From Galbibacter sp. BG1 (GTDB lineage: Bacteria; Bacteroidota; Bacteroidia; Flavobacteriales; Flavobacteriaceae): a DNA stretch of 64,000 nt. The DNA lies in NCBI RefSeq assembly GCF_013391805.1, contig NZ_CP058364.1, positions 2,857,501-2,921,500 on the forward strand, written 5' to 3'. The notes beneath the pieces are model-generated. The model searched no databases and was not told the DNA's origin. It saw nothing but the letters and a program-made list of their open reading frames with translations. The position numbers were made by a program, and so were the translations under genes. Shown here one piece after another: positions 1,965 through 10,859 of the stretch; position 1 is the first letter of the stretch, and the number at the start of each line of letters is the position of its first letter.

Positions 1965-3344
1965 TTATAAAAAGGATTTGAGTTTTTTCGCTAAGTTTAA
2001 TTTTCCATGATAGGGCGCATATTTTAAGGGGATATCCAACCACGTACCTCTTCTTACCACCGATTTTTTATGGGAAAACACATCAAAGGTTAAGCTCCCA
2101 TGGTAAGCACCAATCCCACTGTTTCCAACACCTCCAAATGGTAGCCTTTTGTTTACAAAATGCACAATAGTATCATTTATGGTACCCCCACCATAAGAAA
2201 ATTGTGCCATTAACCGATTGGCATAATGGCGGCGTTTGGAGAATACATAAAGTGATAAGGGTTTTTCAAATCGTTTTACGATATTCTCTATGTCCACATC
2301 TTCTCGATATGCTAATACAGGTAGAATTGGACCAAAAATCTCTTCGTTCATAATACTACTGTCCAAATGAGGTTCATCTACAAGGGTCGGTGCCAAATAG
2401 AGATCGTTTTTATCATTTTCGCCTCCATAAACGACGTTTTGTCCTTCGAGCAGTTGCTGCAATCGGTCAAAATGATCCATATTTACGATTCTAGGGTAAT
2501 CTGGAGATTGCTTTGGTCGGTTGGTGTAAGCGGCAATCACTTCTTGCTTTAAGGCTTCTATGAGTGTATGTTTTACCTTTTCTGCAACCAAGAGGTAATC
2601 TGGCGCAATACAAGTTTGTCCGCCATTAATAAATTTTCCCCAAACAATTCTTTTGGCAGCTTGTTCAATATTGGCTGTTTCGTCTACTATACATGGGTTT
2701 TTTCCACCCAGTTCCAAAGTTACGGGAGTGAGGTGTTTAGCCGCTGCTTGATAAACAATTTTTCCAACTTTCGGACTTCCGGTAAAGAAAATATAATCCC
2801 AACGTTCTTCCAATAGAGCTTGAGATACTTCTTTGTCGCCTTGTATTACAGTTACATATGCTTTGGGAAAGACGGTTTCTATTATTTCTGAAATTAGTTC
2901 TGAAGTATTGGGCGTTAGTTCCGAAGGTTTAAGTACTACTGTATTCCCTGCTGCCACAGCACCAATTAATGGTGACAACGCCAATTGAAAGGGATAATTC
3001 CACGGCGCAATTATTAAACTGTTCCCATACGGCTCTTTAATTATTTTGGCTGAAGATGGGAAATTTATCAAGGAAGCTCTTACGCTTCTCGTTCTCGCCC
3101 AAGAATTTAAATTGCTAAGGGTATCATTCAATTCGGCTAGAATGTATTGGGTTTCGGTAAGCAAAACTTCAAACTCACACTTTTTAAAATCGGCGTACAA
3201 GGCGTTGCAGATTTCTTTTTCCCTGTTTTCTATAACTTCTTTCAGGTTTTTCAGTAGTTTTTTTCTGTACTTTAGGTCCTTGGTTTTTCCACTGTTGAAA
3301 TAGTTTTTTTGTGAGGTTATAATTTCTGTTATATCGGTTTCCAT
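1965..3344 (-). CDS. Aldehyde dehydrogenase, NAD(P)-dependent, class 3-like
   Basis: 459 residues, the usual length of class-3-type ALDHs, which are about 40 residues shorter than the standard family. Visible motifs are APWNYPFQL (Rossmann region), FTGSPKVGK (NAD binding), LELGGKNP with the general-base Glu, and NGGQTCIAPDYLL with the catalytic Cys. A hydrophobic, basic C-terminus (HGKLNLAKKLKSFL) resembles the tail of membrane-associated fatty aldehyde dehydrogenases. The reaction is oxidation of an aldehyde to a carboxylate, and the substrate cannot be read from sequence. The gene is monocistronic, and its start lies about 60 bp from the oppositely oriented ilv leader region. Confidence 0.92.
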   Translation of the reverse strand: METDITEIITSQKNYFNSGKTKDLKYRKKLLKNLKEVIENREKEICNALYADFKKCEFEVLLTETQYILAELNDTLSNLNSWARTRSVRASLINFPSSAKIIKEPYGNSLIIAPWNYPFQLALSPLIGAVAAGNTVVLKPSELTPNTSELISEIIETVFPKAYVTVIQGDKEVSQALLEERWDYIFFTGSPKVGKIVYQAAAKHLTPVTLELGGKNPCIVDETANIEQAAKRIVWGKFINGGQTCIAPDYLLVAEKVKHTLIEALKQEVIAAYTNRPKQSPDYPRIVNMDHFDRLQQLLEGQNVVYGGENDKNDLYLAPTLVDEPHLDSSIMNEEIFGPILPVLAYREDVDIENIVKRFEKPLSLYVFSKRRHYANRLMAQFSYGGGTINDTIVHFVNKRLPFGGVGNSGIGAYHGSLTFDVFSHKKSVVRRGTWLDIPLKYAPYHGKLNLAKKLKSFL

Positions 3345-3401
3345 AGATTTTACATTTAAAAAAGCTTCTTCAATTTATAAATTATATCTAATATTGTAAC
3401 A

Positions 3402-3494
3402 ATGAAAAGAACAACAATTAAAATATTAGAAAAAGCAAACGCAATAGCAGTAATCATTTCTGTCATTTCTTTGGTAATTATTTTACTGAATTAA
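3402..3494 (+). CDS. Ile/Val/Leu-rich leader peptide 1 of the ilv operon (30 aa)
   Basis: ATG at 3402 to TAA at 3492-3494 encodes 30 residues. Fifteen of these are Ile, Val or Leu, crowded in the second half (AIAVIISVISLVIILLN). A hydrophobic short ORF rich in the end-product amino acids, 28 nt upstream of an intrinsic terminator and in front of ilvD, is the classical arrangement for ribosome-mediated transcription attenuation. A weak Bacteroidota -7-like element (TAATATTG, 3389-3396) lies just upstream. That the peptide is translated is inferred. Confidence 0.75.
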   Translation: MKRTTIKILEKANAIAVIISVISLVIILLN

Positions 3495-3502
3495 AAAAGG
3501 AA
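3493..3502 (+). promoter_or_regulatory. Candidate antiterminator arm of attenuator 1
   Basis: AAAAAAGGAA, overlapping the leader-1 stop codon, can pair with 3528-3537 (TTCCTATTTT) with one mismatch. This would sequester the 3' half of the left terminator arm and the loop. A ribosome reaching the leader stop codon would cover this arm and let the terminator fold. A ribosome stalled on upstream Ile/Val codons would leave it free. The pairing was found by eye and is A/T-rich. Confidence 0.4.
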
Positions 3503-3522
3503 TGTTGCTCAATTAATATAGT

Positions 3523-3553
3523 AAGCCTTCCTATTTTGGGAAGGCTTTTTTTT
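3523..3553 (+). terminator. Attenuator terminator 1 upstream of ilvD
   Basis: A 9-bp stem AAGCCTTCC (3523-3531) pairs with GGAAGGCTT (3539-3547), with a 7-nt loop and a run of eight T from 3546. It starts 28 nt after the leader-1 stop codon. Its position after a biosynthetic leader peptide and before the operon indicates conditional termination. Confidence 0.85.
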
Positions 3554-3559
3554 AACCGT

Positions 3560-3610
3560 ATGAACTTTAAAAAGAACGTCATTATTAAAATTATCATTAA
3601 CTCCTATTGA
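3560..3610 (+). CDS. Second Val/Ile-rich leader peptide of the ilv operon (16 aa)
   Basis: ATG at 3560 to TGA at 3608-3610 encodes MNFKKNVIIKIIINSY, with six Ile/Val in seven consecutive residues broken by one Lys. It begins only a few bases after the T-run of terminator 1 and ends 22 nt before a second terminator. It therefore repeats the leader-terminator arrangement and would only be transcribed after readthrough of terminator 1. Confidence 0.6.
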   Translation: MNFKKNVIIKIIINSY

Positions 3611-3632
3611 GTTGATGCACCGCCCTATTTGT

Positions 3633-3669
3633 AAAAGGTCTGTATCAATAAAAGGTACAGACCTTTTTT
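3633..3669 (+). terminator. Attenuator terminator 2 upstream of ilvD
   Basis: A 12-bp perfect stem AAAAGGTCTGTA (3633-3644) pairs with TACAGACCTTTT (3656-3667), with an 11-nt loop and a T-run. It sits 22 nt after the stop codon of leader 2 and about 190 bp before ilvD. I saw no convincing antiterminator here; TATTGA at 3605-3610 can only pair with the loop (3645-3650). Confidence 0.8.
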
Positions 3670-3739
3670 ATTTTCAGAAAATAAACAAATAAAAACGTTT
3701 GAATGTCCTAAAAAAACGAGTCTAACTTGTTGTAAATCA

Positions 3740-3747
3740 TAAGTTTG
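3740..3747 (+). promoter_or_regulatory. Possible -7 promoter element (TAnnTTTG type) before ilvD
   Basis: TAAGTTTG fits the Bacteroidota sigma-A -7 consensus TAnnTTTG and lies downstream of both attenuators. No well-spaced -33 TTG was found. If active, it would give attenuation-independent basal expression of ilvD. Confidence 0.25.
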
Positions 3748-3862
3748 AATATTTTTTAAGGGGATTGGATTTAAAGTAATAAAAGAATCAAACTGAAAAT
3801 TAGAAATTCAATAGCATAATTTTGAATAAAATTAAATAATACTCGAAAATTTAACATATAAA

Positions 3863-5545
3863 GTGAAATTAAACAAGTTTAGCCAACAAGTTACACAAGA
3901 CCCCACGCTACCGGCAGCACAAGCCATGTTGCATGCGCTGGGTTTAACAGATGAAGATTTAAAAAAGCCTTTTGTAGGAATTGCTAGTACGGGTTACGAA
4001 GGAAATCCTTGTAATATGCACCTCAACGATCTTGCTACCCATGTAAAGCAGGGTGCAACAAATGCTGATCTTGTCGGTTTGATATTCAATACCATTGGAG
4101 TGAGCGACGGGATATCCAACGGAACACCGGGAATGCGTTTCTCATTGCCGTCAAGGGATATTATTGCAGATTCCATGGAGACGGTGGTGGAAGCTATGAG
4201 TTATGACGGACTGGTAACAGTGGTGGGCTGCGATAAGAATATGCCTGGAGCCCTTATGGCCATGTTGCGTTTAAACAGGCCTTCGGTGTTGGTTTACGGC
4301 GGAACCATAGCCTCTGGATGCCATAACGGACAAAAACTGGATATTATTTCTGCTTTTGAAGCCTATGGACAAAAAGTGGCAGGTACTATTGATGAAGCGG
4401 AGTATAAAGAAGTAGTACATAAGGCGTGTCCGGGGGCGGGAGCTTGCGGCGGGATGTACACTGCCAATACCATGGCATCGGCCATTGAGGCTTTGGGTAT
4501 GTCTTTGCCATACAATTCTTCCAACCCTGCGGTAAGCGATGAAAAAATTAAGGAACAGGAGGCTGTAAAGGCTGGTGAAGCAGTTCGCTTACTGTTGGAG
4601 AAAGACATCAAACCATCGGATATTGTAACTAAAGAGTCCTTGGAGAATGCGATTCGTTTGGTAACGGTATTAGGGGGTTCCACCAATGCAGTACTGCATT
4701 TCTTGGCAATTGCTAAGGCTGCAAAAGTAGATTTTACGCTAGAAGATTTTAAAAGAATAAGCGACAGCACTCCTTTATTGGCAAATTTAAAGCCAAGTGG
4801 AAAATATTCAATGGAAGACTTACACCACATAGGTGGAATCCCAGGAGTTTTAAAATATATGTTGGAGGAAGGAATGCTTCATGGCGACTGTTTGACTGTT
4901 ACAGGAAAAACAATCGCTGAAAACCTAAAGGAGGTTCCAAATCTAAAAGAAGATCAGGATATCATCCGTACAGTGGATAAACCAATTAAAGATACCGGTC
5001 ATATCCGAATTTTATTTGGGAATCTGGCTACGGAAGGAGCCGTGGCAAAAATCACTGGTAAAGAAGGACTTTCTTTTAAAGGAACGGCCAATGTTTTTGA
5101 TAATGAAAAAGCAGTAAACGAAGGGATAAAAAGCGGAAAGGTTAAAAAGGGCGATGTGGTGATAATTCGTTACGAAGGTCCTAAAGGAGCACCAGGGATG
5201 CCAGAAATGCTAAAACCTACATCTTCCATTATGGGAGCTGGTTTGGGTAAAGATGTGGCCCTAATTACCGATGGAAGATTTTCCGGAGGGTCCCATGGGT
5301 TTGTGGTAGGCCATGTAGCACCAGAAGCTCAAGTGGGAGGAAATATTGCTTTAGTGGAAAATGGCGATGTAATTGCCATCGATGCAGTTAACAACACTAT
5401 CAACATAGAAATATCCGATGAAGTATTGGCCGAAAGACGAGCAAAGTGGAAAGCTCCAAAATTAAAAGCAGAAAAAGGAATCTTGTATAAATACGCTAAA
5501 ACGGTATCGTCGGCCTCCAAAGGTTGTGTAACCGATGAATTTTAG
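3863..5545 (+). CDS. ilvD: Dihydroxy-acid dehydratase
   Basis: 560 residues, full family length, with a GTG start. The opening [20 protein letters not shown] matches the known N-terminus of Bacteroidota IlvD, which supports GTG at 3863. It dehydrates 2,3-dihydroxy-isovalerate and 2,3-dihydroxy-3-methylvalerate to the 2-oxo acids of valine and isoleucine synthesis. The iron-sulfur ligands are visible: Cys50 in GNPCNMH, the Cys in VGCDKNMPG (about residue 123) and the Cys in [10 protein letters not shown] (about 188-195). It is the first structural gene of the operon, placed downstream of the tandem leader-peptide/terminator region. Confidence 0.97.
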
Positions 5546-5602: not shown

Positions 5603-7336
5603 ATGGAAGTAAAGACATTGAAAAAAGAAGAAAGTAAAACCGGAACTAAAATAAGGATTTCGGGAGCCGAAGCAGTAATTCACTGTTTATTGGCTGAAGG
5701 TATAGAAACAGTTTACGGGTACCCCGGAGGCGCTATTATGCCAATATACGATGAGTTGTACAAATTTAGGGATCGACTTCATCATGTATTGACAAGGCAC
5801 GAACAAGGAGCCACACATGCTGCCCAAGGCTATGCTAGGGTCTCTGGAAAAGTGGGGGTGGCCATGGCTACTTCTGGTCCAGGAGCTACAAACTTGGTTA
5901 CCGGGATCGCAGATGCCCAAATAGATTCTACTCCCATGGTATGCATCACGGGACAGGTTGCGCGACATTTATTGGGGTCTGATGCCTTTCAAGAAACCGA
6001 TATTGTTGGAATTTCCACTCCAGTCACTAAATGGAATTATCAAATAACCAATGCTTCGGAAATCCCAGAAGTAATGGCCAAGGCATTTTATATTGCTAGA
6101 TCGGGCAGGCCTGGTCCCGTACTTATAGATATTACAAAAAATGCACAGTTTGAAGAATTCGATTTCGAATATCAAAAATGCACTGCCATCAGAAGTTATA
6201 CGGCGAAGCCCACCATAAATCAAGATAAAATAGAAGAGGCTGCCGAGCTTATCAATAAAGCTAAAAAACCAATGATTGTTTGGGGTCAAGGAATTATTTT
6301 AGGAAAAGCCGAAGCGGCGCTCAAAGCTTTTGTGGAAAAAGCGGGAATTCCTGCGGCTTGGACTATCTTGGGTGCTTCAGCTTTGCCTTCTACACACCCT
6401 TTAAATGTGGGGATGGTTGGAATGCACGGTAATTACGGACCCAATATGCTTACCAATGAATGCGATGTACTTATTGCCTTGGGAATGAGATTCGACGACA
6501 GGGTAACAGGGGATTTATCTACCTATGCCAAACAAGCTAAAGTATTGCATTTTGAAATTGATCCTGCGGAAATCAATAAAAATGTGCATGCCGATGTTCC
6601 TGTTTTGGGAGATGTAAAAGAGTCTTTGGAAGCTATATTGCCATTGATTACTGAAAATAATCACGATGCATGGCACAACAAATTTAAAGAGCATTATAAA
6701 ATAGAATTCGATAAAGTAATAAAAAACGATTTACATCCTGAAAAAGAGGGATTAACCATGGGAGAGGTGATTGAGCGAATCAATAAAGAATCCAATCACG
6801 AAGCGGTTATCGTTTCCGATGTTGGCCAGCATCAAATGATTGCTTGCCGTTATGCCAAATTCAATACATCCAAAAGTAACATCACTTCAGGCGGATTGGG
6901 TACAATGGGATTTGCACTACCAGCAGCTATTGGTGCCAAAATGGGTGCTCCCAAAAGGGAAGTAGTTGCCGTTATAGGCGATGGTGGTTACCAAATGACC
7001 ATTCAAGAGCTTGGTACCATCTTTCAAACAAAAGTACCCGTTAAGATTGTTGTTTTAAACAACGATTTCTTGGGGATGGTAAGACAATGGCAACAATTGT
7101 TTTTCGACAGGCGCTATGCTTCTACCGAAATGACAAACCCCGATTTCATAAAAATTGCAGAAGGATATCATATTCAAGCGAAAAAAGTTACCAAAAGGGA
7201 AGATTTAGAAGGAGCGGTAAAAGAAATGATGGCATCTCCAAATGCTTATTTCTTGGAGGTTCAGGTGGAAAAAGAGGACAATGTATTCCCAATGATTCCA
7301 ACAGGAGCTTCGGTTTCAGATATTCGTTTGAGTTAA
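5603..7336 (+). CDS. ilvB: Acetolactate synthase, large (catalytic) subunit
   Basis: 577 residues from the ATG at 5603; a TTG nine bases upstream is in frame but less likely. This ThDP-dependent enzyme condenses pyruvate with pyruvate or 2-oxobutyrate, the first common step of Val/Ile/Leu synthesis. Seen in the sequence: GYPGGAIMP, the catalytic Glu in LTRHEQGA, the FAD-region GMRFDDRVTGD, and the ThDP/Mg motif that starts at GDGGYQMT and ends at VVLNND. It follows ilvD by 57 nt in the same direction and is followed by its regulatory subunit ilvN. Confidence 0.97.
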   Translation: MEVKTLKKEESKTGTKIRISGAEAVIHCLLAEGIETVYGYPGGAIMPIYDELYKFRDRLHHVLTRHEQGATHAAQGYARVSGKVGVAMATSGPGATNLVTGIADAQIDSTPMVCITGQVARHLLGSDAFQETDIVGISTPVTKWNYQITNASEIPEVMAKAFYIARSGRPGPVLIDITKNAQFEEFDFEYQKCTAIRSYTAKPTINQDKIEEAAELINKAKKPMIVWGQGIILGKAEAALKAFVEKAGIPAAWTILGASALPSTHPLNVGMVGMHGNYGPNMLTNECDVLIALGMRFDDRVTGDLSTYAKQAKVLHFEIDPAEINKNVHADVPVLGDVKESLEAILPLITENNHDAWHNKFKEHYKIEFDKVIKNDLHPEKEGLTMGEVIERINKESNHEAVIVSDVGQHQMIACRYAKFNTSKSNITSGGLGTMGFALPAAIGAKMGAPKREVVAVIGDGGYQMTIQELGTIFQTKVPVKIVVLNNDFLGMVRQWQQLFFDRRYASTEMTNPDFIKIAEGYHIQAKKVTKREDLEGAVKEMMASPNAYFLEVQVEKEDNVFPMIPTGASVSDIRLS

Positions 7337-7413
7337 AAAGAAGTTTATAAAGTTGTAAAGGGAGCTAAAAAATCATGCAAAGCTTGCCATTATTAACCAA
7401 CAACGAAATAAAA

Positions 7414-7944
7414 ATGGAAGAAAATAAAACATTTACGATATCGGTTTATTCTGAAAACAATGTAGGTTTATTAAACAGGATTTCAGGAATATTCTTGAAG
7501 AGACATATTAATATAGAAAGTTTAAATGTTTCAAAATCAGAAATAGACCACGTTTCTAAATTTACTATCGTAGTTCATACTACAGAAGACTGGACACGTA
7601 AAATTGTGGGACAGATTGAGAAACAAATTGAGGTGATCAAGGCGTATTATCACACCAACGAAGAAACTATTTTTCAAGAATCGGCGCTCTTTAAAATCGC
7701 TTCAAACTTATTGTTCGATGAACGGCAAATTCAGAATATCATAAAAGACAACCATTCTGAAATTGTAACCGTTTCCCCTGAATTTTTTGTGATCTCAAAA
7801 TCGGGAAGGCGTGAAGAAATTGAAGAAATGTACGAGCAGCTAAAACCGTATGGGATCATGCAATTCGTGCGTTCAGGTAGAATTTCCGTATCTAAGTCGG
7901 AAATGCAAATTTCCAATATTTTAAAGGAATTTCAGTATCAATAA
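7414..7944 (+). CDS. ilvN: Acetolactate synthase, small (regulatory) subunit
   Basis: About 176 residues from the ATG at 7414 (MEENKTFTISVYSENNVGLL). An in-frame ATG at 7375 would add 13 residues outside the conserved ACT domain. The N-terminal ACT domain (ISVYSENNVGLLNRISGIF, then HINIESLNVSKSE) binds the feedback inhibitor, usually valine. The C-terminal half (ISKSGRREEIEEMYEQLK) is the ALS_ss_C-type domain. It activates the catalytic subunit encoded just upstream. Confidence 0.95.
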   Translation: MEENKTFTISVYSENNVGLLNRISGIFLKRHINIESLNVSKSEIDHVSKFTIVVHTTEDWTRKIVGQIEKQIEVIKAYYHTNEETIFQESALFKIASNLLFDERQIQNIIKDNHSEIVTVSPEFFVISKSGRREEIEEMYEQLKPYGIMQFVRSGRISVSKSEMQISNILKEFQYQ

Positions 7945-8019: not shown

Positions 8020-9489
8020 ATGGCAAATTATTTTAATACACTTTCGCTTAGACAACAATTAGAACAATTGGGAGTATGTGAATTTATGGATAGCTCAGAA
8101 TTTAACGATGGTGTAGAAAAACTTAAAGGAAAAAAGGTAGTAATTGTTGGATGCGGTGCACAAGGTCTTAACCAAGGACTTAATATGAGGGATTCTGGAT
8201 TGGATGTTTCGTATGCATTGCGGGAAGGAGCCATTAAAGAAAAAAGACAATCTTACTTAAACGCTACCGAAAATGGTTTTAAAGTAGGTTCTTACGAGGA
8301 ATTGATTCCAAGTGCAGATTTGGTGTGTAACCTTACCCCAGACAAGCAGCATACCAATGTGGTAAGCACTATTATGCCGTTAATGAAAAAAGGATCTACC
8401 TTATCTTACTCGCACGGTTTTAATATCGTGGAGGAAGGGATGAAAATACGTGAAGATATTACGGTTATTATGGTGGCGCCTAAGTGTCCTGGATCCGAAG
8501 TTCGTGAAGAATACAAAAGAGGTTTTGGGGTTCCTACCTTAATTGCTGTTCACCCAGAAAACGATCCAGAAGGAAAAGGATTGGAGCAGGCAAAAGCATA
8601 TGCTGTTGCAACGGGAGGCCATAAAGCGGGGGTTTTACGCTCTTCTTTTGTGGCTGAAGTTAAATCGGATTTAATGGGGGAACAAACCATTCTATGTGGA
8701 TTATTACAAACTGGTTCTATTTTGAGTTTTGATAAGATGGTAGAAAAAGGGATTGATCCTGGCTATGCTTCAAAACTTATTCAATACGGATGGGAAACCA
8801 TTACAGAGGCTTTAAAATATGGCGGTATTACCAATATGTTGGATCGTTTATCGAACCCTGCCAAGATTGAAGCCTTTAAAATTTCCGAAGAATTAAAAGA
8901 AATTATGCGTCCGCTTTTCCAAAAGCATATGGACGATATTATGAGCGGTCATTTTTCTAAAACGATGATGGAAGATTGGGCCAACGACGATAAAAACCTA
9001 CACACTTGGCGTGCCGCCACAGGGGAAACTGCTTTCGAAAAGACACCAGCAGGGGATGTAGCCATTTCAGAACAAGAATATTTTGACAATGCGGTGTTGA
9101 TGGTAGCATTTGTGAAATCTGGAGTTGAATTAGCTTTCGAAACGATGACAGAAGCAGGAATTATTGAAGAATCAGCCTATTATGAATCGCTGCATGAGAC
9201 ACCGCTTATTGCCAATACCATTGCCAGAAAAAAATTATTCGAGATGAACCGTGTAATTTCAGATACGGCGGAGTATGGATGTTATTTATTTGATCACGCC
9301 TGTAAGCCTTTGCTAACAGATTTTATGAAGAAAGTGGACACCAATATTATTGGGAAACCTTTTGCTGAATCGAATGGCGTAGATAACAAAGAACTCATTG
9401 AAATTAACGATCAAATCCGTAACCACCCGGTGGAAGAAGTAGGAGCGTGGTTGCGTACCTCGATGACCGCTATGAAAAAGATTGTATAA
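8020..9489 (+). CDS. ilvC: Ketol-acid reductoisomerase, long (class II) form
   Basis: 489 residues from the ATG at 8020. The start [18 protein letters not shown] matches the conserved N-terminus of long-form KARI such as E. coli IlvC (491 aa), so an in-frame GTG at 7978 is not used here. The Rossmann motif is [15 protein letters not shown]. The length and the duplicated C-terminal helical domain mark class II. It converts acetolactate and acetohydroxybutyrate to dihydroxy acids with Mg2+ and NADPH. It is the fourth gene of the operon, 75 nt after ilvN. Confidence 0.96.
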
Positions 9490-9596: not shown

Positions 9597-10859
9597 ATGC
9601 AAACAAAAACCGTTTACATACCAACATTAGAAAATGTAAGGAAAGCTGCTGCTACTCTCAACGGAGTGGCAGCAGTTACGCCTTTAACGCATAGCTTGCG
9701 ATATTCCAAGAATTTCGAAGCCAATATCTTGCTTAAAAGGGAGGATTTACAGGTGGTGCGATCCTATAAAATTAGGGGAGCATACAATAAAATCAGTTCC
9801 TTGACAAAAGAAGAAAGGGAAAAAGGAATTGTTTGTGCATCTGCAGGAAATCATTCGCAAGGAGTTGCCTATTCATGCAAAGAGCTTAAAATTAAAGGGA
9901 CCATTTACATGCCTTCCCCAACTCCCAGACAGAAGATTGAGCAGGTGAAAATGTTTGGGGAGGATTATATTGATATTGTTTTGGAAGGCGATACTTTTGA
10001 TGATGCCAACAAAGCAGCCTTAACGGAATGTAACCGGTTGGGAAAAACTTTTGTGCATCCATTCGACGATGAAAAAGTTATTGAAGGTCAAGCTACGGTT
10101 GGTCTGGAAATTCTGGAACAAACCAAAAAGACCATAGATTATGTGTTTGTTGCCGTGGGGGGTGGTGGCTTGGCTTCTGGACTCTCCAGCGTTTTCGACG
10201 TGCTTTCCCCACAAACAAAAATTATTGGGATAGAACCGCAGGGGGCGCCCTCTATGAAAACGTCTTTAAAAAACCAAAAAAATACCGAACTCCAAGAAAT
10301 CGATAAGTTTGTAGACGGGGCAGCGGTGCAACGAGTGGGAGATAAAACCTTTGCTATCTGCAAACAGTTTTTAGATGAAATGATTACCGTTCCGGAAGGA
10401 AAGGTATGTCAGGAAATACTAGACCTGTATAACAAAGATGCCATTGTAGTGGAACCCGCTGGGGCTTTAACACTGGCGGCTTTAGATTTTTATAAGGACA
10501 AACTGAAAGGGAAAAATGTAGTTTGTGTGGTAAGCGGCAGTAACAACGATATTACACGAACCGCAGAAATTAAGGAGCGCGCATTGCTCTACGCCAATTT
10601 AAAGCATTACTTTATCATAAGGTTCCCGCAACGAGCGGGTGCGCTTAAGGAATTTGTTGCTGAAATTTTGGGCCCTACGGATGATATTACCCATTTTCAA
10701 TACACCAAAAAGAATGCAAAGGAAAATGCACCTGCCGTGGTTGGGATCGAATTGAAAGATGAAAAGGATTTAGAACCACTTATTGCCCGCATGAAAACCA
10801 GAAACTTTTTTGGGGAATATTTAAACAACAAACCAGACCTATTTCAGTATTTGGTTTAA
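9597..10859 (+). CDS. ilvA: Threonine dehydratase (threonine ammonia-lyase), biosynthetic
   Basis: 420 residues from the ATG at 9597; a TTG at 9567 is in frame but lies in a palindromic repeat. It is a PLP enzyme deaminating threonine to 2-oxobutyrate, the isoleucine-specific entry step. The PLP lysine is in RSYKIRGAYNK, and the phosphate-binding loop is VAVGGGGLASG. The C-terminal about 85 residues (YFIIRFPQRAGALKEFVAEI) form one ACT-like regulatory domain, giving the shorter one-ACT form. It is the last gene of the ilv operon and has no clear terminator. Confidence 0.94.
   Translation: MQTKTVYIPTLENVRKAAATLNGVAAVTPLTHSLRYSKNFEANILLKREDLQVVRSYKIRGAYNKISSLTKEEREKGIVCASAGNHSQGVAYSCKELKIKGTIYMPSPTPRQKIEQVKMFGEDYIDIVLEGDTFDDANKAALTECNRLGKTFVHPFDDEKVIEGQATVGLEILEQTKKTIDYVFVAVGGGGLASGLSSVFDVLSPQTKIIGIEPQGAPSMKTSLKNQKNTELQEIDKFVDGAAVQRVGDKTFAICKQFLDEMITVPEGKVCQEILDLYNKDAIVVEPAGALTLAALDFYKDKLKGKNVVCVVSGSNNDITRTAEIKERALLYANLKHYFIIRFPQRAGALKEFVAEILGPTDDITHFQYTKKNAKENAPAVVGIELKDEKDLEPLIARMKTRNFFGEYLNNKPDLFQYLV

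Follow-up and report, generated by a model that had tools for sequence, protein, structure and literature searches.

Two predicted leader-peptide attenuators in series precede the ilvDBNCA operon of Galbibacter sp. BG1 and recur in Flavobacteriaceae

The window, that is, the whole 64,000-nt stretch of Galbibacter sp. BG1 DNA that was analysed, contains an ilvDBNCA operon preceded by two short ORFs rich in Ile and Val codons, each followed by an intrinsic terminator (Table 1). This arrangement had been described in the earlier note, and the exact positions were confirmed, with stop codons 28 and 22 nt before T1 and T2, respectively. The stem of T1 (3523-3547) is followed by six T, and that of T2 (3633-3667) by a T-rich tail. 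The second leader had been said to begin only a few bases past the T-run of T1; indeed, it starts 6 nt after this run. Among its 30 codons leader 1 has 8 Ile, 3 Val and 4 Leu; leader 2 has 5 Ile and 1 Val. Four terminator-like sites were found, against 1.0 +/- 1.2 expected. Since the upstream aldehyde dehydrogenase gene lies on the opposite strand, T1 and T2 are not terminators of that gene. A scan of the window against Rfam 15 gave no match and thus no known leader or riboswitch family (T-box and amino acid leaders included), and BLASTN against plasmids gave no match.

Table 1. Genes and predicted regulatory features at the locus (window positions).
Feature	Position	Strand	Sequence, support or remark
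Aldehyde dehydrogenase gene, upstream of leaders	1965-3344	minus	divergent
Candidate promoter P1, -7 box	3389..3396	+	TAATATTG (consensus TAnnTTTG); predicted start ~3401
Leader peptide ORF 1, type A, 30 codons	3402-3494	+	MKRTTIKILEKANAIAVIISVISLVIILLN, then stop
Antiterminator strand 2 of attenuator 1	3495..3504	+	AAAAGGAATG; pairs with the CCTTCC arm of T1
Intrinsic terminator T1	3523..3553	+	AAGCCTTCC..GGAAGGCTT and T-run
Leader peptide ORF 2, type B, 16 codons	3560-3610	+	MNFKKNVIIKIIINSY, then stop
Strand 1 of attenuator 2	3595..3603	+	CATTAACTC; overlaps last Ile codon; 1:2 helix and MFE fold
Strand 2 of attenuator 2	3609..3619	+	GAGTTGATGCA; starts within stop codon; alternative partners strand 1 and strand 3
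Intrinsic terminator T2	3633..3672	+	strand 3 TGTATCAA at 3641-3648
Conserved three-part spacer element	3699..3775	+	TTGAATGTCCTA from 3699, TTGTAAATCA from 3729, TTGGATTTAAA from 3765; alignment of 65 spacers
Candidate promoter P2, promoter-like -7 box	3817..3824	+	TAATTTTG; predicted start ~3829, 34 nt before ilvD
ilvD, dihydroxy-acid dehydratase	3863..5545	+	GTG start; TIGR00110, 752 bits
ilvB, acetolactate synthase large subunit	5603..7336	+	TIGR00118
ilvN, acetolactate synthase small subunit	7411..7944	+	TIGR00119
ilvC, ketol-acid reductoisomerase	8020..9489	+	NF003557
ilvA, threonine ammonia-lyase	9597..10859	+	NF006390

The comparison set comprised about 135 ilvD loci; the sequences upstream of ilvD were taken from genomes related to that of the window and from 80 named genomes. 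These were scanned for terminators preceded by a short Ile/Leu/Val-rich ORF. Two conserved modules recur across Flavobacteriaceae, type A, represented by unit 1 of the window, and type B, represented by unit 2. Type A consists of a leader like MKKQILNIISIIVVVIISQG followed by the stop codon, past which come a G-rich strand (GGAAGG or GGAATGGTAT) and the terminator GCCTTCC..GGAAGGC. In type B the leader resembles MN..IIIISIIIINSS (..VIVEVIIIPEMG in Muricauda), again up to the stop codon, the strand TTGATACAG begins in or adjoins the stop codon, and the terminator is CCTGTATCAA..GATACAGG. Wherever both modules are present at a locus, the order is A then B. The earlier note had proposed aligning the ilvD upstream regions of the family in search of conserved leaders and covarying stems; both leader ORFs and their Ile/Val enrichment proved to be conserved, and covarying stems are present. 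The detector used found no such leader in about one third of the relatives with ilvD.

Covariance models were built from 20 type A and 22 type B sequences. In the fetched loci they match upstream of ilvD or of an ilvE-ilvD pair; the remaining matches in the 0.83 Mb searched either score weakly, arise from one model recognising the other type, or mirror the same elements on the reverse strand. Matches with E of about 1e-3, frequent in genomes this AT-rich, were disregarded. Among 300 genomes of the family, strong type A matches occur in roughly 75 and strong type B matches in roughly 57, downstream genes having been checked only for the fetched loci. A second group, consisting of R1 matches about 84 nt long, was dropped: these lie about 350 nt ahead of a gatA-like gene, and no Ile/Val leader was found with them. 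Type A model matches of this length and location were seen in several Flavobacteriaceae (L164, L165, L166, L174), with no Ile/Val leader visible.

The codon content was assessed by a fixed rule, which required an ATG ORF with 12-32 codons, a distance of 10-46 nt from its end to the terminator, and Ile and Val together at least 35%. This rule holds for 66 of the 89 terminators upstream of ilvD and for 1 of the 238 other terminators in the same loci. Comparison of similar leaders revealed a coding signature. For type A the ratio of synonymous to non-synonymous differences is 169:257 in the true frame vs 106:378 and 57:437 in the other frames; for type B it is 47:49 vs 25:73 and 13:88. The Ile/Val enrichment and the coding signature support short ORFs with a run of end-product codons, whose translation is predicted from the sequence.

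We then considered the RNA strands, numbered 1 to 4, that could pair in alternative ways. An intrinsic terminator (3:4) lies between the leader ORF and the structural gene, and an antiterminator helix (2:3) over its 5' arm excludes it; this helix is weaker in unit 1 of the window (p=0.12). In type B the 1:2 helix, which joins Ile codons with the stop-codon region, has 91.9% of cells paired (at most 53% when slid) and 26 cells with both sides changed, at 5 of the 9 pairs. The 2:3 helix of type B has 93.9% of cells paired (at most 40% when slid); it varies little, and covariation within the type is weak. The type B terminator is paired in 99% of cells. Thus, all three helices are conserved, and they are in part mutually exclusive. 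In type A a local hairpin and the terminator covary; a 1:2 helix was sought in this type, and its pairing was not significant. The mean energy of the 2:3 duplex is -10.4 kcal/mol for type A and -12.7 kcal/mol for type B, vs -6.4 kcal/mol for shuffled sequences in both cases. Further, in lineages with another terminator sequence (L101, L133) strand 2 has changed to match, so that the 2:3 complementarity is kept; in L101 strand 2, GGTAAAGG, complements CCTTTACC. In the Aquimarina loci L094 and L101 the terminator after the Ile leader differs in sequence (TCCCTTTACC or TCCCTTCAGC), strand 2 of L101 being a perfect match.

For the RNA left uncovered when the choice between the helices is made, folds were computed in three states: ribosome stalled on the last suitable Ile/Val codon, ribosome on the stop codon, and no ribosome. 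In the stalled state the 2:3 helix folds in 56 of 59 type A and in all 45 type B units; in the stop-codon state it does so in 2/59 and 4/45, respectively. With no ribosome, type B folds the 1:2 helix in 40 of 45 cases. A 2:3 helix of at least eight pairs is formed by 42/59 type A units (5% of shuffles) and by 44/45 type B units (34% of shuffles). The placement of the control codons fits these states: the last Ile/Val codon is followed by three codons before the stop in 32 of the 59 type A leaders and by three to five in 37 type B leaders, so that in the folding model strand 2 stays accessible during a stall at these codons and is covered once the ribosome is at the stop. As modelled, the behaviour of both types is the logic of the trp, his and ilv attenuators. 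In the window the switch is clear for unit 2. For unit 1 the 2:3 duplex is only moderately better than in shuffles (p=0.12); it is strong in L002 and L003, which belong to the same genus.

We conclude that the ilv transcript very probably carries two complete ribosome-mediated transcription attenuators in series. The features of the sequence on which this rests are the ORFs, the terminators, the alternative helices, and the conservation and order of the units; from them we infer stalling, antitermination and the multiplication of the two decisions. RNA polymerase would start at P1, almost at the leader 1 AUG, and a ribosome would follow at once. When Ile-tRNA (and Val-tRNA) is charged, the ribosome would reach the stop codon of leader 1 and cover strand 2; T1 would then form and transcription would end. 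A ribosome stalled at Ile/Val codons, some 3-5 codons before the stop, would instead let strand 2 pair with the terminator's 5' arm, and transcription would continue. Leader 2 would then be made, and the same decision would be repeated with a different RNA sequence. The additional 1:2 hairpin of type B, built partly of Ile codons, would hold the switch off when the ribosome is absent. Expression along the P1 path would be the product of two read-through probabilities, from which a multiplied, tighter and steeper repression by Ile and Val may fairly be inferred, and P2 would probably supply the basal level.

In 58 of 86 loci the ATG of the first leader has a Bacteroidota -7-like box 4-16 nt ahead of it, as do 3.9% of all ATGs. 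According to the promoter description for Flavobacterium psychrophilum in PMC9723704, the -7 box spans positions -12 to -5. On that description, the 5'UTR of the first leader would be 0-6 nt long in most such loci and about 1 nt in the window, where leader 1 is thus predicted to be almost leaderless (3389-3401). A spacing of 4-5 nt between the box and the AUG recurs in 24 loci. The same source gives only 5.5% leaderless mRNAs in F. psychrophilum (PMC9723704).

The spacer between T2 and ilvD is about 190 nt long and contains a three-part element, found in about 60 related spacers, with the consensus TTGAAyATsrTA, a CTGAWWWTCAG dyad and TTGGATTTAA, the parts being about 33 nt apart. It is possibly a regulator site or an RNA element. 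It lies upstream of the promoter-like box of P2, situated 34-46 nt upstream of ilvD; a box of the form TAnnTT(T/C)G near the gene start, behind the element, is present in 40 of the 65 aligned spacers. The element and the box together make a second, bypass promoter likely, and much transcription may avoid the attenuators. Hence the operon might be driven mainly from P2, the upstream units yielding short RNAs or a minor, starvation-specific share of transcripts. We regard this as possible but rather unlikely, since seven loci (L035, L082, L099, L167, L169, L159, L160) have just 15-50 nt between the end of the last terminator and the first gene, ilvE. This leaves no room for a further promoter, and the genes can hardly escape the terminator, yet leaders and helices are kept. 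Moreover, codons and alternative helices would not be conserved over long times unless their output were under selection. A transcription start downstream of 3669 had been named in the earlier note as evidence against attenuation; the conserved box at 3817-3824 makes such a start likely, whereas the relatives lacking the spacer argue that the attenuators control the operon.

The tree of ilvD from 73 loci shows how the units are distributed: 30 loci have A then B, 23 have A only, and 20 have B only. At least 14 changes of state are required, fewer than in any shuffle; the tree was built by FastTree only, and ilvD may have moved between genomes. The frequent changes and common single-unit states speak for the possibility that only one unit is functional in the window's genome and the other is a decaying duplicate. 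The weaker 2:3 helix of attenuator 1 and the loss of unit B in L005, from the same genus, point the same way. On the other hand, both ORFs, both terminators and the antiterminator strands are intact in the window, and the 30 loci that keep both units, A then B, belong to distant clades; both deep clades of the tree contain them. We therefore consider decay of one unit improbable.

Serial attenuators extend to three units in L159 and L160, where they precede ilvE-ilvD; two of the three L159 units are identical at 110 of 114 positions, which indicates a recent tandem duplication. Serial duplication of a complete leader-peptide attenuator, with units gained by duplication and lost, and with multiplying read-through probabilities, may well be a general route to steeper amino acid control in Bacteroidota, and we lean slightly towards this view. 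Within one family, this operon is naturally preceded by one, two or three units, which offers a clean test of whether serial attenuators multiply and sharpen the response, and types A and B provide two RNA models for annotating ilv control in Bacteroidota. In other Bacteroidota families, ilvE of L183 directly follows a series of two Ile-rich leaders with their terminators, and in L186 a prephenate dehydratase (pheA-like) gene follows two Phe-rich leaders (MQKQLNNYFFFFNAMR and MKRQTSTVFFYFFFIQP), likewise arranged serially and each provided with a terminator.

As to the signal, the Leu and Val codons of leader 1, mostly absent from leader 2 in the window, had suggested that the leaders sense different amino acids, so that Leu/Val would be gated by leader 1 and Ile by leader 2. 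Across the loci the two types are nearly equal in make-up (Ile 32%, Val 12%, Leu 7% in type A; Ile 30%, Val 14%, Leu 5% in type B), Leu being enriched in neither, and only the window's lineage has the Leu codons of leader 1. Two of these four codons adjoin the stop, and judging by the geometry a ribosome stalled there would already cover strand 2 instead of freeing it. This division of signals is thus very improbable, and that part of the earlier proposal is not supported, while its core, the series of two attenuators, has good support: the units are conserved, their codon content and coding signature fit, covarying alternative helices are present, and the geometry agrees. That T1 and T2 are ordinary terminators of the upstream gene with ORFs arising by chance, as AT-rich DNA yields many Ile-rich frames, is hardly conceivable given the divergent orientation of that gene and the control rate of 1/238, and is refuted by the conservation.

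Attenuation has been little studied in Bacteroidota, where translation is initiated without Shine-Dalgarno sequences. In the enterobacterial attenuators of ilvGMEDA, ilvBN, leu, trp and his, a leader with end-product codons is followed by four alternating RNA strands and an intrinsic terminator, and stalling produces the antiterminator. The units described here share this design, the 1:2 pairing being conserved in type B and not significant in type A; they differ in being arranged in series of two or three, whereas the enterobacterial operons have a single unit each, and leader 1 of the window differs in being predicted as almost leaderless and lacking a Shine-Dalgarno sequence. To our knowledge, the described cases of leader-peptide attenuation have one unit per operon. 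The series of ilv leader units is real and conserved and most likely represents two ribosome-mediated attenuators for Ile/Val, the type of switch itself being already familiar.

The Listeria Rli60 and Staphylococcus aureus ilvD attenuators have leader peptides rich in branched-chain amino acids and a terminator/antiterminator, the S. aureus leader being rich in Leu and Ile and presumed to sense Leu (PMC5864092, PMC5794164). The ilvD operon is the target in all these cases; in those Firmicutes there is one leader each. In Salmonella mgtCBR, a single leader mRNA contains two short ORFs, mgtM and mgtP, that act as tandem attenuators, which its authors called a singular example in 2012; they respond additively to two different signals, ATP and proline, and have no intrinsic-terminator-like structures (PMC3641672). 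Here too, two attenuators lie in one leader. However, mgtCBR is not a biosynthetic operon, and in our case each unit has its own intrinsic terminator and the equal codon make-up of A and B points to one signal rather than two. Tandem riboswitches upstream of Bacillus clausii metE, as cited in PMC3641672, combine SAM and B12 sensors with two terminators in series; these are ligand-binding RNAs with no leader peptides. In the same family as Galbibacter, leader-peptide attenuators upstream of amino acid operons are mentioned for F. psychrophilum, the operon and any tandem arrangement being unnamed in the part of that source available to us (PMC9723704). No earlier description of serial ilv leaders was found in the open-access literature searched, most subscription papers being outside its scope.

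Elsewhere in the window's genome, a leader was sought before leuACDB and none was found. Upstream of hisG there is a single His attenuator, MTIYTSHHHHFHFFAQAR with its stop codon and then an intrinsic terminator (L182), and upstream of the prephenate dehydratase gene (pheA) a single Phe leader (..NFYFFFFYFFNKRTGRL; ..NFYFFFFYFF..) with a terminator (L188). These single leaders indicate that leader-peptide attenuation is ordinary in the group and that it is the series that stands out. Phe/Tyr-rich leaders like that of L188 are present in about half of the related loci scanned.
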